NCBI GenBank assembly: GCA_004172865.1
Contig: SEBV01000006.1
Location: 1 to 64,000 of the forward strand
Source: Gammaproteobacteria bacterium
Lineage (GTDB): Bacteria; Pseudomonadota; Gammaproteobacteria; Pseudomonadales; Cellvibrionaceae
Reading direction: 5' to 3'
Length of the DNA: 64,000 bases
Positions 15,748 to 54,070 of this stretch are shown here, one piece after another (positions within the stretch are counted from its first letter, which is position 1; each line of letters starts with the position of its first letter). Below the pieces are notes generated by a model. The model saw only the letters and a list, made by a program, of their open reading frames with translations, was not told the DNA's origin and did not search any database. The position numbers were made by a program, and so were the translations under genes.

Positions 15748-16404
15748 GTGTTATCCCTATATTCTATCGACGAAAAAATCATGAGCGAAAGCATGGCTAC
15801 CAAACTGGTGTTTGTTGGCATTAGTATTGTGTGCTTTTATTTAGCAACAAAATTGCTCAATAAAATTGCGCACGATGTTAGCGTGCGTAAAGCATTTGGC
15901 GATTCACGCGTACCCTACATTACCAAGCTGATGAATATCGGCATGGTATTTTGTTGCATCGTCGTTGTGTGTTTACTACTTGGACTCGGCTACAGCGAAG
16001 TCTCTGTTTTCTTATCATCCATTTTTGCCGTTGTCGGCGTTGGCTTATTTGCGCAGTGGTCGATACTGAGCAACGTTACCGCCAGCATGATTATCTTTTT
16101 CGGATTCCCCTATCGCATCGGCGATTTAATTAAAATTGCAGATAAAGATGAAGATATCAGCGGTGTGATCGAAGAAATCAGTATGTTCCATATTATTTTG
16201 CGTCGCGAAGACGGTAATATGATTACCTACCCAAATTCAATGTTGCTACAAAAAGCCGTACTAAAAATGGAACATTCCTACGAAACTTTTGCGGAACAAG
16301 AACCGGAAGTTGTCGATGCTGTTGATAGAAATGCTGTTGATCTAAATTCAAATGAAAAGAAAGATAGTAATCATTTAAAAAGCATTAAAACTAATCGTGA
16401 TTAA
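15748..16404 (+). CDS. small MscS-type mechanosensitive channel protein
   Basis: This 218-aa membrane protein has three predicted helices: about 18-37, 62-85 and the pore-like glycine/alanine helix 88-115 (SSIFAVVGVGLFAQWSILSN). A beta domain with FGFPYRIGDLIKI and GVIEEISMFHIILRREDGNMITYPNS follows, which is the MscS signature around the pore and upper vestibule. The C-terminal 45 residues are hydrophilic. It is shorter than E. coli MscS (286 aa) because the lower vestibule is reduced. A GTG start with GAGAAG 7 bases upstream was used; an in-frame ATG at 15781 is possible. It is convergent with kup. Confidence 0.85.
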   Translation: MLSLYSIDEKIMSESMATKLVFVGISIVCFYLATKLLNKIAHDVSVRKAFGDSRVPYITKLMNIGMVFCCIVVVCLLLGLGYSEVSVFLSSIFAVVGVGLFAQWSILSNVTASMIIFFGFPYRIGDLIKIADKDEDISGVIEEISMFHIILRREDGNMITYPNSMLLQKAVLKMEHSYETFAEQEPEVVDAVDRNAVDLNSNEKKDSNHLKSIKTNRD

Positions 16405-16465: not shown

Positions 16466-18379
16466 TTAAATCTGCACCCGCGTTCCCAATTCCACTACCG
16501 CATTATCGGGCAATCGAAAAAACTCAACTACTCCGCCAGCGTTACGGCTCATAGTCGCAAATAAGTTCTCTCGCCATTTTCCCATGCCACTTCCCGGCGT
16601 AGCCACAATAGTTTCGCGGCTTAAAAAATAACTGGTTTGAAATAGCGGAATATTCAAACCGAAAGCCTCGCATAACTTTAATGCTTTGGGTACATCTGGC
16701 ACTTCCATAAAACCAAAATGCAAAGTCACTTGCCAGAAATTTTTATGCAAATTTTCCAGCTCAACTCGTTCACTTTCATCCACCCAAGGCACATCAGAAA
16801 AACGTACGGTTAAAATTACATTTCGCTCATGCAACACTTGGTTATGTTTTAAATTGTGTAGCAATGCTTGCGGAACAGTCGACGGATCTGCAACGGGATA
16901 AACCGCTACTCGCGTAGATTGTTGAATTTCAGCAGGATTAAGCGTAGCGATAAATGCTTGTAGATCCACGCCTTCTTTGCGAATACTCGCTAACACAATA
17001 TCGCGACCGCGACGCCAGGTTGCCATAACTAAAAATAATAGACCGCCCAACACCAATGGGAACCAGCCGCCGTCAAAAAACTTGATCATGCATCCGCCCA
17101 CAAATGCCAAATCCACCAACAATAAAAATCCTATCAACATAGTTGCAATTGCTTTAGGTAATTTCCACCGAAAAATCATAACGAAAAAAGTAAGCATGGT
17201 AGTAATCATCATGGTCAATGTCACTGCAATACCATAAGCGCCTGCCAAACCGGCAGAGGTTTTAAATATCAATACTGCTGCAACAACACCAATCAATAAA
17301 ACCCAATTCACCGCCGGCAAATAAATTTGCCCCGCTTCATTTGCAGATGTATGTTGCACAGACATGCGCGGTAAAAAACCTAACTGGATAGCCTGACGCG
17401 TCATCGAATAAGCGCCGGAGATAACCGCTTGCGATGCGATAATAGCCGCAACAGTTGCAATAATTACCGCAGGCCACAAAAATTCTGTAGAAAATAAATT
17501 GTAAAATGGATTTGAAACAGCACTGGAATCTCGTAACAACAAAGCGCCCTGCCCTAAATAATTTAATGCAAGTGCGGGCATTACCATTCCCACCCAAGCC
17601 CATTGAATAGGTTTGCGACCAAAGTGACCCATATCCGCATAAAGTGCTTCAACACCGGTAAGTGCGAGTACAACTGCACCAAAAACTGCGAACACTAACC
17701 AACCACGATCAATTAAAAATCGAATTGCACAAAGCGGATTCAAGGCCGCAAGAATTTGCGGTTCACGCACAACGTGCACAGCACCAGAAATCGCAAGAAT
17801 CGAAAACCATAAAATCATCAAGGGGCCAAATATTTTTCCAACTGTGCCCGTACCTTTGCGTTGCACTAAGAATAATCCCACCAAAACACCGAGCGTAATT
17901 GGCACAACAAACGGCGTGAGCGTCGGCGTTACCACACTCAAACCTTCCATCGCGCCCAACACAGAAATTGCTGGCGTGATTACACTATCGCCATAAAAAA
18001 GTGTCGCGCCAAATAAACCTAACAATAATAACCAGGGACGCAAACGCGGAAATTTTTCTGTCGACTGAGCAGCCAACGCACTCAACGCCAAAACCCCACC
18101 TTCACCGCGATTATCTGCACGTAAAATTAATAACACATATTTAAAAGTCACCACCAACATCAGCGCCCAAAAAATCGCGGACACTGCGCCGGTGATATTC
18201 GCCGCATCCAAAGTAACTCCTGTCACCGGGCGAAAAATTTCCTGAAAGGTATAAAGCGGACTCGTACCAATATCCCCGTAAACAACACCCAAAGCCGCAA
18301 GCGTAATTGCCGCCGCGCTTTGAGATTTAATGGATTGATTACCAATATCGGCCTGCGTTGATAAACTTTGGGCAGTCAT
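16466..18379 (-). CDS. kup: KUP-family potassium uptake transporter
   Basis: Kup (TrkD) imports K+ with protons across the inner membrane. The 637-aa protein starts its membrane part with the family signature [20 protein letters not shown]. It has about 12 hydrophobic helices up to residue 450, and a cytoplasmic C-terminal domain of about 180 residues with [13 protein letters not shown]. The conserved GGEGGVLAL-like loop appears as [11 protein letters not shown]. It is followed upstream by the KdpE/KdpD-like genes, and its promoter region carries the same 11-bp-phased repeat as the kdpD promoter, so I infer shared control. Confidence 0.97.
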
Positions 18380-18429
18380 GCCAAAACTCCTCTGAGGTTA
18401 ATGTCAGAGTTAGTGTGGCAGGTGGGGTG

Positions 18430-18448
18430 TTAGGATTGTGTTAGGATT
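18430..18448 (-). promoter_or_regulatory. direct repeat, likely response-regulator site upstream of kup
   Basis: TTAGGATT occurs at 18430-18437 and again at 18441-18448, exactly 11 bp apart, 51-69 bp upstream of the kup start. One helical turn between half-sites is how OmpR-family regulators bind. The same pair, with small changes, lies upstream of kdpD (20829-20847). The assignment to the KdpE-like regulator next door is inferred. Confidence 0.55.
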
Positions 18449-18471
18449 AATTAGCTGATGAGTAGGAAATC

Positions 18472-18550
18472 TTCTCGCACCCAAGCTCCAGTTTGGGAGT
18501 GTATAGAAAATTTAATATGCATTCCCAAGCTGGAGCTTGAGGAACGAGAA
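18472..18550. repeat. 79-bp imperfect inverted repeat, REP/MITE-like
   Basis: The left arm TTCTCGCACCCAAGCTCCAG continues to TTTGGGA (18472-18498). It is mirrored by a right arm (18523-18550) that reads TCCCAAGCTGGAGCTTGAGG and then AACGAGAA. The arms are about 27 bp with a few mismatches, and about 24 A/T-rich bases lie between. The core CCAAGCTCCAGCTTGG, with an AACGAG flank, resembles palindromic repeats scattered in many proteobacterial and cyanobacterial genomes. Only one copy is present in this window. It lies between kup and the kdpE-like gene. Confidence 0.6.
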
Positions 18551-18567
18551 CATGAAATCAGTAATTT

Positions 18568-19269
18568 TCAATCATCAGCTAAACGATAACCAATGCCCGG
18601 CTCCGTTAACAATAAACTCGGATCAGCAGAATTCACTTCCAGCTTTGCGCGCAACTGCGCCATGTATAAACGTAAATAATGCGTGTGTTCGATAAATTCT
18701 GCGCCCCATACATCGCTAAGTAAATGTCGATGCGTTACCACTTTCCCTGCGCTGCGAACTAGCCGAGCTAATAAATTAAATTCTGTAGGTGTTAGATGAA
18801 CTTGTTCCCCATAACGTGTCACTGAATGCGCCGCTAAATCTATAAAGACACCGGCGCGATTATATTGAGTGATTGCCACATTGGTCGGTATTCCTTTATG
18901 GCGCAGTGCAACACGAATACGTGCTAGCAATTCGCCAATACCAAATGGTTTTACTAAATAATCGTCTGCACCCAAATCTAATAGCCGAATTTTTTGGCCC
19001 TCCTGTTCGCGTGCGGAAATTACGATCACCGGAATATTAAATTGTTTACGCAATTGCGCGAGTAAGGTTTCGCCATCACCATCAGGCAAACCTAAATCTA
19101 ATAAAATAAGATTCAACTCATTACCGGCAATGCGCGCATTAGCAACAATCGCATTACCTTCCGATAGGCTTGCGGCGGTAATTAATTTATAGCCTTCCAA
19201 TAACAACGCATCGCGCAAGGTTGCGCGTAATTCGCGGTCATCTTCAACTAATAATATGTTGCGGCTCAC
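18568..19269 (-). CDS. kdpE: KdpE-like OmpR-family response regulator
   Basis: This is a 233-aa two-component regulator. The receiver domain (1-120) has LLVEDD, the phospho-acceptor Asp in ILLDLGLPDGDGE, and K in YLVKPF. The C-terminal winged helix (about 130-230) has TPTEFNLLARLVRSAGKVVTHRHLL and the recognition-wing segment GIGYRL. It resembles KdpE more than other OmpR members. Its start overlaps the kinase stop by 4 bp, so the pair is translationally coupled. No kdpFABC genes are in the window; kup is the adjacent candidate target. Confidence 0.88.
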   Translation of the reverse strand: MSRNILLVEDDRELRATLRDALLLEGYKLITAASLSEGNAIVANARIAGNELNLILLDLGLPDGDGETLLAQLRKQFNIPVIVISAREQEGQKIRLLDLGADDYLVKPFGIGELLARIRVALRHKGIPTNVAITQYNRAGVFIDLAAHSVTRYGEQVHLTPTEFNLLARLVRSAGKVVTHRHLLSDVWGAEFIEHTHYLRLYMAQLRAKLEVNSADPSLLLTEPGIGYRLADD

Positions 19270-20807
19270 GATTTAACTTCCGAAGATTGTTGTGTAGGTA
19301 ATTCACGCAAAGGCAAACTCAACACAAACTTTGATCCACCTTCCGGCGGGCACTCAACACTCAGTTTGCCGTTATGTGCCGATGCAATTGCACGACATAA
19401 AGCTAAACCCACGCCTGCACCCGGCGTTTGTATTTTACTAAACGAACCACGCTGAAAAGGTTCGAATATTTTTTCATGCAAGCTTATATCTATTCCCTGT
19501 CCGCTATCGCTTACCGAAAATAAAAAATGATTCTCACCAACATTCGCTACCACTTTTACCGCGCTATCTGCCGGACTGTATTTGAGTGCGTTATCGATTA
19601 AATTTTCTAACAGCTGAGCGATTAATACTGAGTCGCACCAAACCAATGGTAGATCAGGATGTAACTCGATCTGCAAACGCTCGCCTGATTTTCGGCCACG
19701 CCAACGGCGCAATAAGTCGCCGGTGATTTCTTCGGCAGATTGCCAATCGCAATTAATGCGTTTATCCGCATCCAAACGCGCGAGCTGTAAAATATTGTGA
19801 GTGATGCTATTTAAGCGTTCAGCTTCATCAAAAATTCGTTGCGAAAGTTGATGCTGCTGATTTGAATCCAATTTATCCGCTTGTTCAGTCAACGATGATG
19901 CCGCTCCCATAATTGTTGCTAAGGGAGTGCGGTAATCGTGGGAAATTGCAGCGAGTAAATTGTTGCGAATCAATTGTGATTGCGCATGTTCGCGCGCGTT
20001 TATTTCTTGCTGTTGCAATCGGTAACGTTCAAGTGCGTTGCCGAATTGATCGCAAATCGCTTGCAGATGCACACGCGTAGAAAATTCATGTTCGGAAAAA
20101 TTACCAATCAGCACCGCACCTAACGCATGACCTCGTGCACGAAGCGGCAAATAAACATCTGAAAACATTTCGTAACGGCCAGTATCTCGCCCCAATTGCT
20201 GATTGTTGCGCGTGCAATACCAAAGCGCATGACGCTGCTCTATTCCAGCATCACCCAACAACCACACTTGTTGAATATCGTCTTGAGGTGGTAAGGAGTT
20301 TTTTAAAACCAGAACTGCAACTTGGCGAGAACTTAATTGCTCCAATAAATTTTTTAATTCATCCACATGCTCATGAGGCGCAATGGATTCAAGCAGACGA
20401 TCACTCCAGGCTCGTAACCTATCCGCTTCAATTGCATGTCGCTCTGCACGTTCGGATTGCGCGCGTTTAACGGCCATTAAACTTACCACAATAATATTAA
20501 CGACCAACATCACCAATAACATAACAGTGTGCTGCTGAAAATCTACCGTGAAAGTTCCGCGCGGAGGTATAAAAAACCAGTCAAACGCCAACACAAAAAT
20601 AATGGCAAGCACTATGGATATTCGCCACGGCAAGCACACCGCAGCCAGCGCGGACGTAAGCACCAGTAACATCGCTAAATTACTAAAATCCAGATGGGTA
20701 TCTAGCAAATAAATCGCGAGCCAACCGACAAGCCAAATCGCACCGCCTAACCAATGGGAGGTTTTGTTTCGCGATTCTTTAGGTGTGATAACAATTGGTT
20801 TCATCAT
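19266..20807 (-). CDS. KdpD-like sensor histidine kinase lacking the N-terminal Kdp domain
   Basis: This 513-aa membrane kinase has four helices at about residues 20-115 with the DUF4118 motif FDWFFIPPRGTFTVDF, a GAF-like region at about 150-260, an H-box ISHDYRTPLATIMGAAS at about 290, and an HATPase domain with NLIDNALKYSP, DSGQGI and GAGVGLALCRAIA. E. coli KdpD is about 894 aa. The roughly 370-residue cytoplasmic N-terminal KdpD and universal-stress-type domains are absent here. The start is 22 bp from a TTAGGATT direct repeat. It pairs with the overlapping KdpE-like regulator. It probably still senses ion status or envelope state, but the usual ATP and c-di-AMP input site is missing. Confidence 0.85.
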   Translation of the reverse strand: MMKPIVITPKESRNKTSHWLGGAIWLVGWLAIYLLDTHLDFSNLAMLLVLTSALAAVCLPWRISIVLAIIFVLAFDWFFIPPRGTFTVDFQQHTVMLLVMLVVNIIVVSLMAVKRAQSERAERHAIEADRLRAWSDRLLESIAPHEHVDELKNLLEQLSSRQVAVLVLKNSLPPQDDIQQVWLLGDAGIEQRHALWYCTRNNQQLGRDTGRYEMFSDVYLPLRARGHALGAVLIGNFSEHEFSTRVHLQAICDQFGNALERYRLQQQEINAREHAQSQLIRNNLLAAISHDYRTPLATIMGAASSLTEQADKLDSNQQHQLSQRIFDEAERLNSITHNILQLARLDADKRINCDWQSAEEITGDLLRRWRGRKSGERLQIELHPDLPLVWCDSVLIAQLLENLIDNALKYSPADSAVKVVANVGENHFLFSVSDSGQGIDISLHEKIFEPFQRGSFSKIQTPGAGVGLALCRAIASAHNGKLSVECPPEGGSKFVLSLPLRELPTQQSSEVKS

Positions 20808-20828
20808 TTTAGGCTAACAGATCTCACG

Positions 20829-20847
20829 TTAGGATTGCATAAGGATG
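20829..20847 (-). promoter_or_regulatory. direct repeat, likely autoregulatory site upstream of kdpD-like gene
   Basis: TTAGGATT (20829-20836) and TAAGGATG (20840-20847) are 11 bp apart, 22-40 bp upstream of the kinase start. They match the repeat upstream of kup in sequence, spacing and orientation relative to the gene. Autoregulation by the KdpE-like protein is inferred. Confidence 0.5.
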
Positions 20848-54006: not shown

Positions 54007-54013
54007 TCCCAAA

Positions 54014-54070
54014 CTGAAGCTTTAAGCCTTTAAGCCTTTAAGCTTCAGCTTTTAAAATAAGCTGAAGCTT
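54014..54070 (+). repeat. three-arm inverted repeat forming exclusive hairpins
   Basis: Arm 1 CTGAAGCTTTAA (54014-54025) pairs with arm 2 TTTAAGCTTCAG (54037-54048). Arm 2 extended, AAGCTTCAGCTT (54040-54051), pairs just as well with arm 3 AAGCTGAAGCTT (54059-54070). The two hairpins share arm 2 and cannot form together. The word TTTAAGCC is repeated in the first loop. It starts 8 bp after the PA3496-like gene stop. No T-run follows. Confidence 0.6.

Follow-up and report, generated by a model that had tools for sequence, protein, structure and literature searches.

A paired promoter site through which a KdpD/KdpE relative probably activates kup and itself

Main finding

In the bacterium studied here and in dozens of others, a relative of the KdpD/KdpE pair probably switches on both its own genes and kup, the gene of a potassium uptake permease, through the same paired site. 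We hold it likely that these genes form a dedicated, self-activating KdpDE-like potassium circuit that would make Kup inducible, a reading that stands on the genes, the sites, their geometry, their conservation, their co-occurrence and the lack of KdpA and TrkH, all taken from sequence. We infer that the regulator binds the site, that it activates from there and that K+ is the signal.

Two direct repeats in front of kup and the kinase gene

The window is the whole stretch of DNA analysed, 64,000 nt of contig SEBV01000006.1 (assembly GCA_004172865.1, Cellvibrionaceae). The features concerned are the following.

16466–18379, minus strand: kup, K+ uptake permease of 637 aa (Pfam K_trans, 595 bits, and K_trans_C; NCBIfam TIGR00794)
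18412–18417, minus strand: -10-like hexamer in the kup promoter, gene-strand sequence CACACT (other kup sites keep NANNNT at this offset)
18430–18448, minus strand: first direct repeat, in front of kup; putative binding site of the response regulator, with half-sites TCCTAA (18430–18435) and TCCTAA (18441–18446)
18482–18539, no strand assigned: abutting inverted repeat with 29-nt arms, between the regulator gene and the kup promoter
18568–19269, minus strand: gene of a KdpE-like OmpR-family response regulator (Response_reg and Trans_reg_C), whose GTG start overlaps the kinase stop
19266–20807, minus strand: gene of a KdpD-like histidine kinase of 513 aa (DUF4118 membrane domain, GAF fold, HisKA, HATPase_c)
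20811–20819, minus strand: kinase promoter, extended -10-like element with the gene-strand sequence TGTTAGCCT (TG and NANNNT at conserved offsets)
20829–20847, minus strand: second direct repeat, in front of the kinase gene; putative binding site of the response regulator, with half-sites TCCTAA (20829–20834) and TCCTTA (20840–20845)

An earlier note on this DNA had described direct repeats upstream of kup and of the kinase gene, with an 11-bp phase and the same orientation relative to the two genes. Both repeats are present, starting at 18430 and 20829, and phase and orientation are as described at each. On the forward strand they read TTAGGATTGTGTTAGGAT(T) from 18430 and TTAGGATTGCATAAGGAT(G) from 20829; on the gene strand (both genes lie on the minus strand) ATCCTAACACAATCCTAAC precedes kup and ATCCTTATGCAATCCTAAC precedes the kinase gene.

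The note had also offered a literal search pattern, TTAGGATTN3TWAGGAT. Its exact matches in the 5.25-Mb genome number two, and both lie at these promoters. When mismatches were allowed, the pattern was no commoner than its reversed control: 18 matches against 24 in the genome (up to two mismatches) and 12 against 13 in 41 genomes of the family (up to one mismatch). In the window there were 5 matches (up to three mismatches) against 3.3 expected. On these counts, the literal 8-mer TTAGGATT is a weak search term, and it was rejected as too local. It is the local form, in this lineage, of a conserved promoter element.

Conservation of the site within the genus

The kinase was searched in 144 genomes of the family (E of 1e-8 or better); 13 were positive, including the genome studied, and all belong to its own genus, which we take to be Cellvibrio from the name borne by its sequence relatives. 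The genus sample comprised 21 genomes, 13 with the kinase, regulator and kup (hereafter the module) and 8 without. The conserved element reads on the gene strand as half-sites (CCTTATG/CCTAAC/CCTGATG) 11 bp apart, followed by a -10-like hexamer at one fixed spacing. Judged by comparison of these promoters, the conserved part is thus the two half-sites, the 11-bp phase and the fixed distance to the -10-like hexamer.

The site lies before kup in 13 of the 13 module genomes and before the kinase gene in 12 of them; the latter count includes one kinase site with a single mismatch (G029) and a degenerate one (G030), and no site was found upstream of the kinase of G031. The hexamer motif NANNNT stands at offset 30 in all 13 kup sites and all 12 kinase sites of the genus, and the TG of an extended -10 keeps one offset in 12/12 kinase sites. 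In G031 (loci L026 and L071), kup is separated from the regulator gene by some 24 kb of the same contig and has kept its site.

A refined pattern gave 31 matches with up to one mismatch in the 21 genus genomes, as compared to 21 for the reversed control. Exact matches numbered 24, of which 23 fall at the module, a clustering that is partly circular because the pattern was made from those same sites; among the 7 one-mismatch matches, 1 is at the module. The second kup of the genus genomes carries no match (21 genomes, up to one mismatch). Seven of the 31 matches lie off the module. For 6 of them the surrounding locus was available, and tblastn detected neither kup, kinase or regulator genes nor KdpA or KdpB within roughly 1.5 kb; at the stringency used, no third target of the regulator was found.

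The site in an independent sample outside the genus

A kinase-alignment scan of 84,980 species genomes returned 103 relatives, from which 80 loci were taken. Nine of these duplicated genus genomes and were removed, leaving 71, mostly from Burkholderiales, and kup follows downstream in the same direction in 51 of the 71. Promoters were scored on 16 positions defined from the genus sites, with a threshold of 14. At least 14 was reached by 49 of the 51 kup promoters, 39 of the 51 kinase promoters and 0.3% of 3654 control windows, the kup stretches being up to 460 bases long and the controls 260. The two remaining kup promoters score 9 and 10.

At the 98 sites scoring at least 13 (49 kinase, 49 kup), NANNNT stands at offset 30 in 98 of 98, and other offsets show it in at most 12%. 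The positions of this hexamer did not enter the score, which makes its fixed spacing a further, independent indication of a promoter element.

Twelve whole genomes (about 62 Mb) were then searched with up to one mismatch. The 18 matches fall at 7 kinase and 11 kup promoters and none elsewhere, and the reversed control gave 2; these genomes were chosen from the loci, and 6 of the 24 expected promoters were missed at this stringency. Three of the 11 kup matches are at kup genes distant from the regulators (G148, G149 and G150), where contig coordinates put kup some 5 to 13 kb past the regulator gene. Together, these comparisons bear out the two checks that had been proposed: the site, in its refined form, concentrates at the promoters of kup and of the kinase gene, and it is conserved genus-wide and into Burkholderiales. 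They support the earlier suggestion that a KdpE-like regulator would control kup and itself.

The 20 loci without kup downstream in the available stretch were followed in part, ten by reading frame and the proteins of five by Pfam. Two of their kinases, those of L136 and L145, are 789 and 811 aa long; in the genomes of L141, L147 and L164, kup is found further off with its site kept.

These data also bear on a rival origin of the repeats, as sites of a different OmpR-family regulator or as AT-rich repeats arisen by chance. The behaviour of the literal pattern, no commoner than its control once mismatches are allowed, would fit such an origin. The conservation, phase and spacing of the site speak against it, as do its co-occurrence with the present regulator in 13/13 genus genomes and its retention where kup is distant from the regulators. 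Moreover, the 8 genus genomes without the regulator give a single exact match to the refined pattern, away from kup. We regard this explanation as highly improbable.

Against the proposed circuit count the kinase promoters: their site is absent in G031, degenerate in G030 and weak, scoring under 14, in 12 of the 51 outside the genus. The kinase of Azomonas (L157) is among these 12; no site was found up to 500 bp upstream of it, and its kup has the site in front. For 13 loci whose kinase site is weak or irregular, extending the search to 500 bp upstream brought up no better site.

Promoter geometry and proposed mechanism

In class II activation, the activator site replaces the -35 element. Offset 30 places any -35 element inside the repeat, and none is seen there by eye, so that the site probably takes the -35 place as in this type of promoter. 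A site in place of the -35 element, at fixed spacing, appears to be the arrangement at the 12/12 kinase and 13/13 kup sites of the genus and at the 98/98 others.

The mechanism that we propose runs as follows. The membrane kinase would sense low K+, by analogy with KdpD, and phosphorylate the KdpE-like regulator. A regulator dimer would bind the two half-sites 11 bp apart, in the -35 place, 12 bp ahead of the -10 hexamer; once bound, it would recruit RNA polymerase, the geometry pointing to class II activation. One of the two target promoters would be that of the kinase-regulator operon itself, which would create positive feedback. The other would be that of kup, so that Kup would become inducible and stand in for KdpFABC.

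The same occupancy could have the opposite effect: the regulator might bind the site and repress, keeping RNA polymerase off the two promoters as long as the signal is absent. The half-sites do cover the -35 position, where repressors also bind. However, with no -35-like hexamer seen by eye at the right distance, there would be little basal promoter to repress, and the invariant -10 spacing in 98/98 sites fits an activator acting in place of a -35 element. In addition, the closest relative of the regulator, KdpE, is an activator: it turns on kdpFABC when K+ is low (PMC5458449, PMC9239096). Repression is accordingly an unlikely reading.

The kinase, the regulator and the nature of the signal

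The Pfam matches over the 513 aa of the kinase are DUF4118, HisKA and HATPase_c only, with no match to a KdpD or Usp domain. Its alignment to the KdpD model covers model positions 416–890. The predicted structure (mean pLDDT 86) has four long helices before the sensor domain. Kinase cores dominated a fold search with the whole kinase, so a separate model was made of the sensor region. This model (mean pLDDT 94) matches GAF domains, and the E. coli KdpD GAF structures 4y2f and 4qpr come second and ninth by E-value. For 4y2f the TM-scores are 0.71/0.74, of which 0.71 is the highest query-normalised value among the matches listed. The kinase thus appears to carry both the four-helix membrane domain (DUF4118) and, by predicted fold, the GAF domain of KdpD. 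It is the one DUF4118 protein found in its genome.

The regulator has the OmpR-type receiver and winged-helix domains (Response_reg, Trans_reg_C), and its best solved-structure match is E. coli KdpE (4kny). The earlier description of the pair as KdpD/KdpE-like holds as a likeness, but both proteins fall under the NCBIfam equivalog cut-offs: the kinase reaches 232 bits against PRK10490 (KdpD), where 1123 are required, and the regulator 241.3 bits against its best model, PRK10529 (KdpE), where 325 are required. The pair should work like KdpDE, yet lies outside KdpD and KdpE by the membership tests made. The permease is above the cut-off of TIGR00794 (547.8 bits; 539.6) and below that of a second model, PRK10745 (699.4 bits; 883).

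In E. coli, KdpD senses K+ in its membrane and GAF domains, and its N-terminal domain phosphorylates the pump subunit KdpB (PMC11018627). The absence of the latter domain here fits the proposed circuit, because there would be no pump to inhibit. The circuit could also be the same and answer to a signal other than K+, such as osmotic pressure, pH or the phosphotransfer system, with Kup as one response. Pointing that way, the KdpD of Sinorhizobium fredii is bound by PtsN1 via its GAF domain (PMC9239096). On the other side, the K+-sensing membrane and GAF domains of E. coli KdpD (PMC11018627) are retained, and in the genomes searched the site was found only at kup and at the circuit's own genes. 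Another signal is hence a minor possibility, though a less remote one than repression, and K+ is the signal that we favour.

Potassium importers in the genomes

The earlier note had remarked that kdpFABC is missing nearby, which turned out to apply more widely: no KdpA is found in the whole genome, and no TrkH-family protein either. A second kup, at 52% identity, is present; among the Kup, TrkH and KdpA families examined, this genome (G000) thus shows two Kup proteins as its K+ importers. G025, G026, G028, G030, G031 and G033 are likewise without TrkH and KdpA, some of these genomes being incomplete; G033 has only the second type of kup.

Within the genus sample of 21, orthologues of the present kup (at least 70% identity) go with the kinase: all 13 genomes that have the kinase carry one, and the 8 others carry none. 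TrkH is found in 14 of the 21 and in 7 of the 13 module genomes; KdpA is found in 5 of the 21, two of which carry the module, and in 3 of the 12 whole genomes outside the genus. Kup is consequently not always the sole importer, since 7 of the 13 module genomes have TrkH and two have KdpA.

Comparison with known Kdp systems

The E. coli kdp half-sites are TTTATA and TTTACA with 5 bp between them (PMC3264566). The module shares with E. coli KdpDE the two direct half-sites in 11-bp phase, its kinase aligns with part of the KdpD model, and its regulator is closest to KdpE. It differs in a kinase without the N-terminal KdpD and Usp domains, in its target, kup, and in a genome without KdpA; the half-site has changed from TTTATA-like to CCTTATG/CCTGATG-like and the recognition helix from HLRQK to QLR[AS]K.

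Canonical kdp promoters were also found within the genus upstream of kdpA, with TTTATA/TTTATA or TTTACA/TTTACG in 11-bp phase (L037, L209, L072 and L073); a strict TTTAYA-type expression found no such repeat upstream of kdpA in L206, L207 and L208, which are from other genera. Measured against TTTAYA direct repeats, the module sites share the 11-bp phase and differ in half-site sequence, chiefly with CC for TT and G for A in each half. In G016 and G029 (L037, L209), the canonical kdpF promoters resemble the module promoters in carrying a hexamer, TAnnnT, at offset 30 of their TTTATA repeat. Such a -10-like hexamer is seen in L209 and L037 but not in L072 or E. coli; as two of the four kdp promoters checked show it, we do not extend the offset-30 geometry to KdpE at large.

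In a quick tree, 39 module regulators (13 from the genus and 26 from the 51 other loci with kup) separate from five KdpEs with an SH-aLRT of 99; the genus regulators form two groups. The recognition helix is QLR[AS]K in 38 of the 39, the remaining one not matching the search expression, and HLRQK in 5/5 KdpEs. We infer that the change in the recognition helix sets the new half-site.

Split KdpD systems, in which the membrane/GAF/kinase chain is apart from a KdpD/Usp chain, have the same truncated kinase architecture as the module; there the shorter chain serves KdpFABC (PMC11018627), whereas here the genome has no KdpA and the target would be kup. In E. coli, Kup counts as a constitutive importer (PMC5458449). 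The KdpE of S. fredii was found to bind the promoter of kdpFABC and to leave that of kup unbound (PMC9239096). This counts against the proposed circuit; control of kup would then be a feature of the present variant.

The gene order of the module is that of KdpD1-KdpE1-KupA in Azotobacter, in print since 2015, whose authors name KdpD1/KdpE1 as regulators of KupA (PMC4465626). The accessible part of that account treats neither a binding site nor the promoters, and mentions neither loss of domains nor a wider distribution. In the openly accessible literature searched, the kdpD-kdpE-kup arrangement appears only there, and the site, its geometry, the split from KdpE and the distribution are not described.

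A predicted leaderless kinase mRNA and a possible orthogonal switch

The kinase ATG of the window lies 7 nt after the -10-like hexamer (20799–20819). At the genus kinase promoters examined, the ATG comes 7 or 8 nt after the last -10 base in 10/10. Among 49 other kinase promoters, the first in-frame start is 6–9 nt after the -10 in 41, always ATG, and a Shine-Dalgarno-like sequence was found in 1. Transcription normally starts at about that distance after the -10. With the ATG about where transcription starts, the mRNA should have almost no leader, and we predict a leaderless kinase mRNA conserved between Cellvibrio and Burkholderiales. Against this, the reading frame is open further upstream in 44 of the 49, so that a start inside the promoter element is also compatible with the frame. 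For kup, the first in-frame start of the 49 others is 28–31 nt after the -10 in 31 and 7–8 nt in 11, with a Shine-Dalgarno-like sequence in 9; these figures overlap, so kinase and kup differ only by degree. In Burkholderia cenocepacia, regulator genes with leaderless transcripts have been reported (PMC4603805).

Taken jointly, the observations somewhat favour the view that the module is a KdpDE paralogue turned into an orthogonal, Kup-dedicated K+ switch, with a changed half-site and helix and a leaderless kinase mRNA. As parts of this joint reading, the shift from TTTATA to CCTTATG/CCTGATG would go with the helix changes H to Q and Q to A, the switch could run beside a true KdpDE in one cell (G016, G029), and it would have spread through Burkholderiales, being present in Cellvibrio and Azomonas as well. 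If true, the circuit would explain a response to K+ limitation without KdpFABC and, in the genome studied, without TrkH. Sister regulators with different half-sites would be a natural pair for studying shifts of specificity in the OmpR family, and the predicted leaderless sensor-kinase mRNA is offered as a conserved case from Cellvibrio to Burkholderiales.

Other features around kup

The inverted repeat at 18482–18539 spans 58 bases with a AAGCTCCAGCTTGGGA core, of which a looser 16-mer copy lies at 54007–54022. By eye, it was not seen in the other regulator-kup gaps compared. It may be a REP/MITE-like element or a hairpin terminator. On the other side of kup, and convergent with it, lies an MscS-like channel gene (15748–16404, 218 aa); an MscS-like gene is also found near kup in five fetched loci of the genus (L025, L027, L030, L035 and L036).
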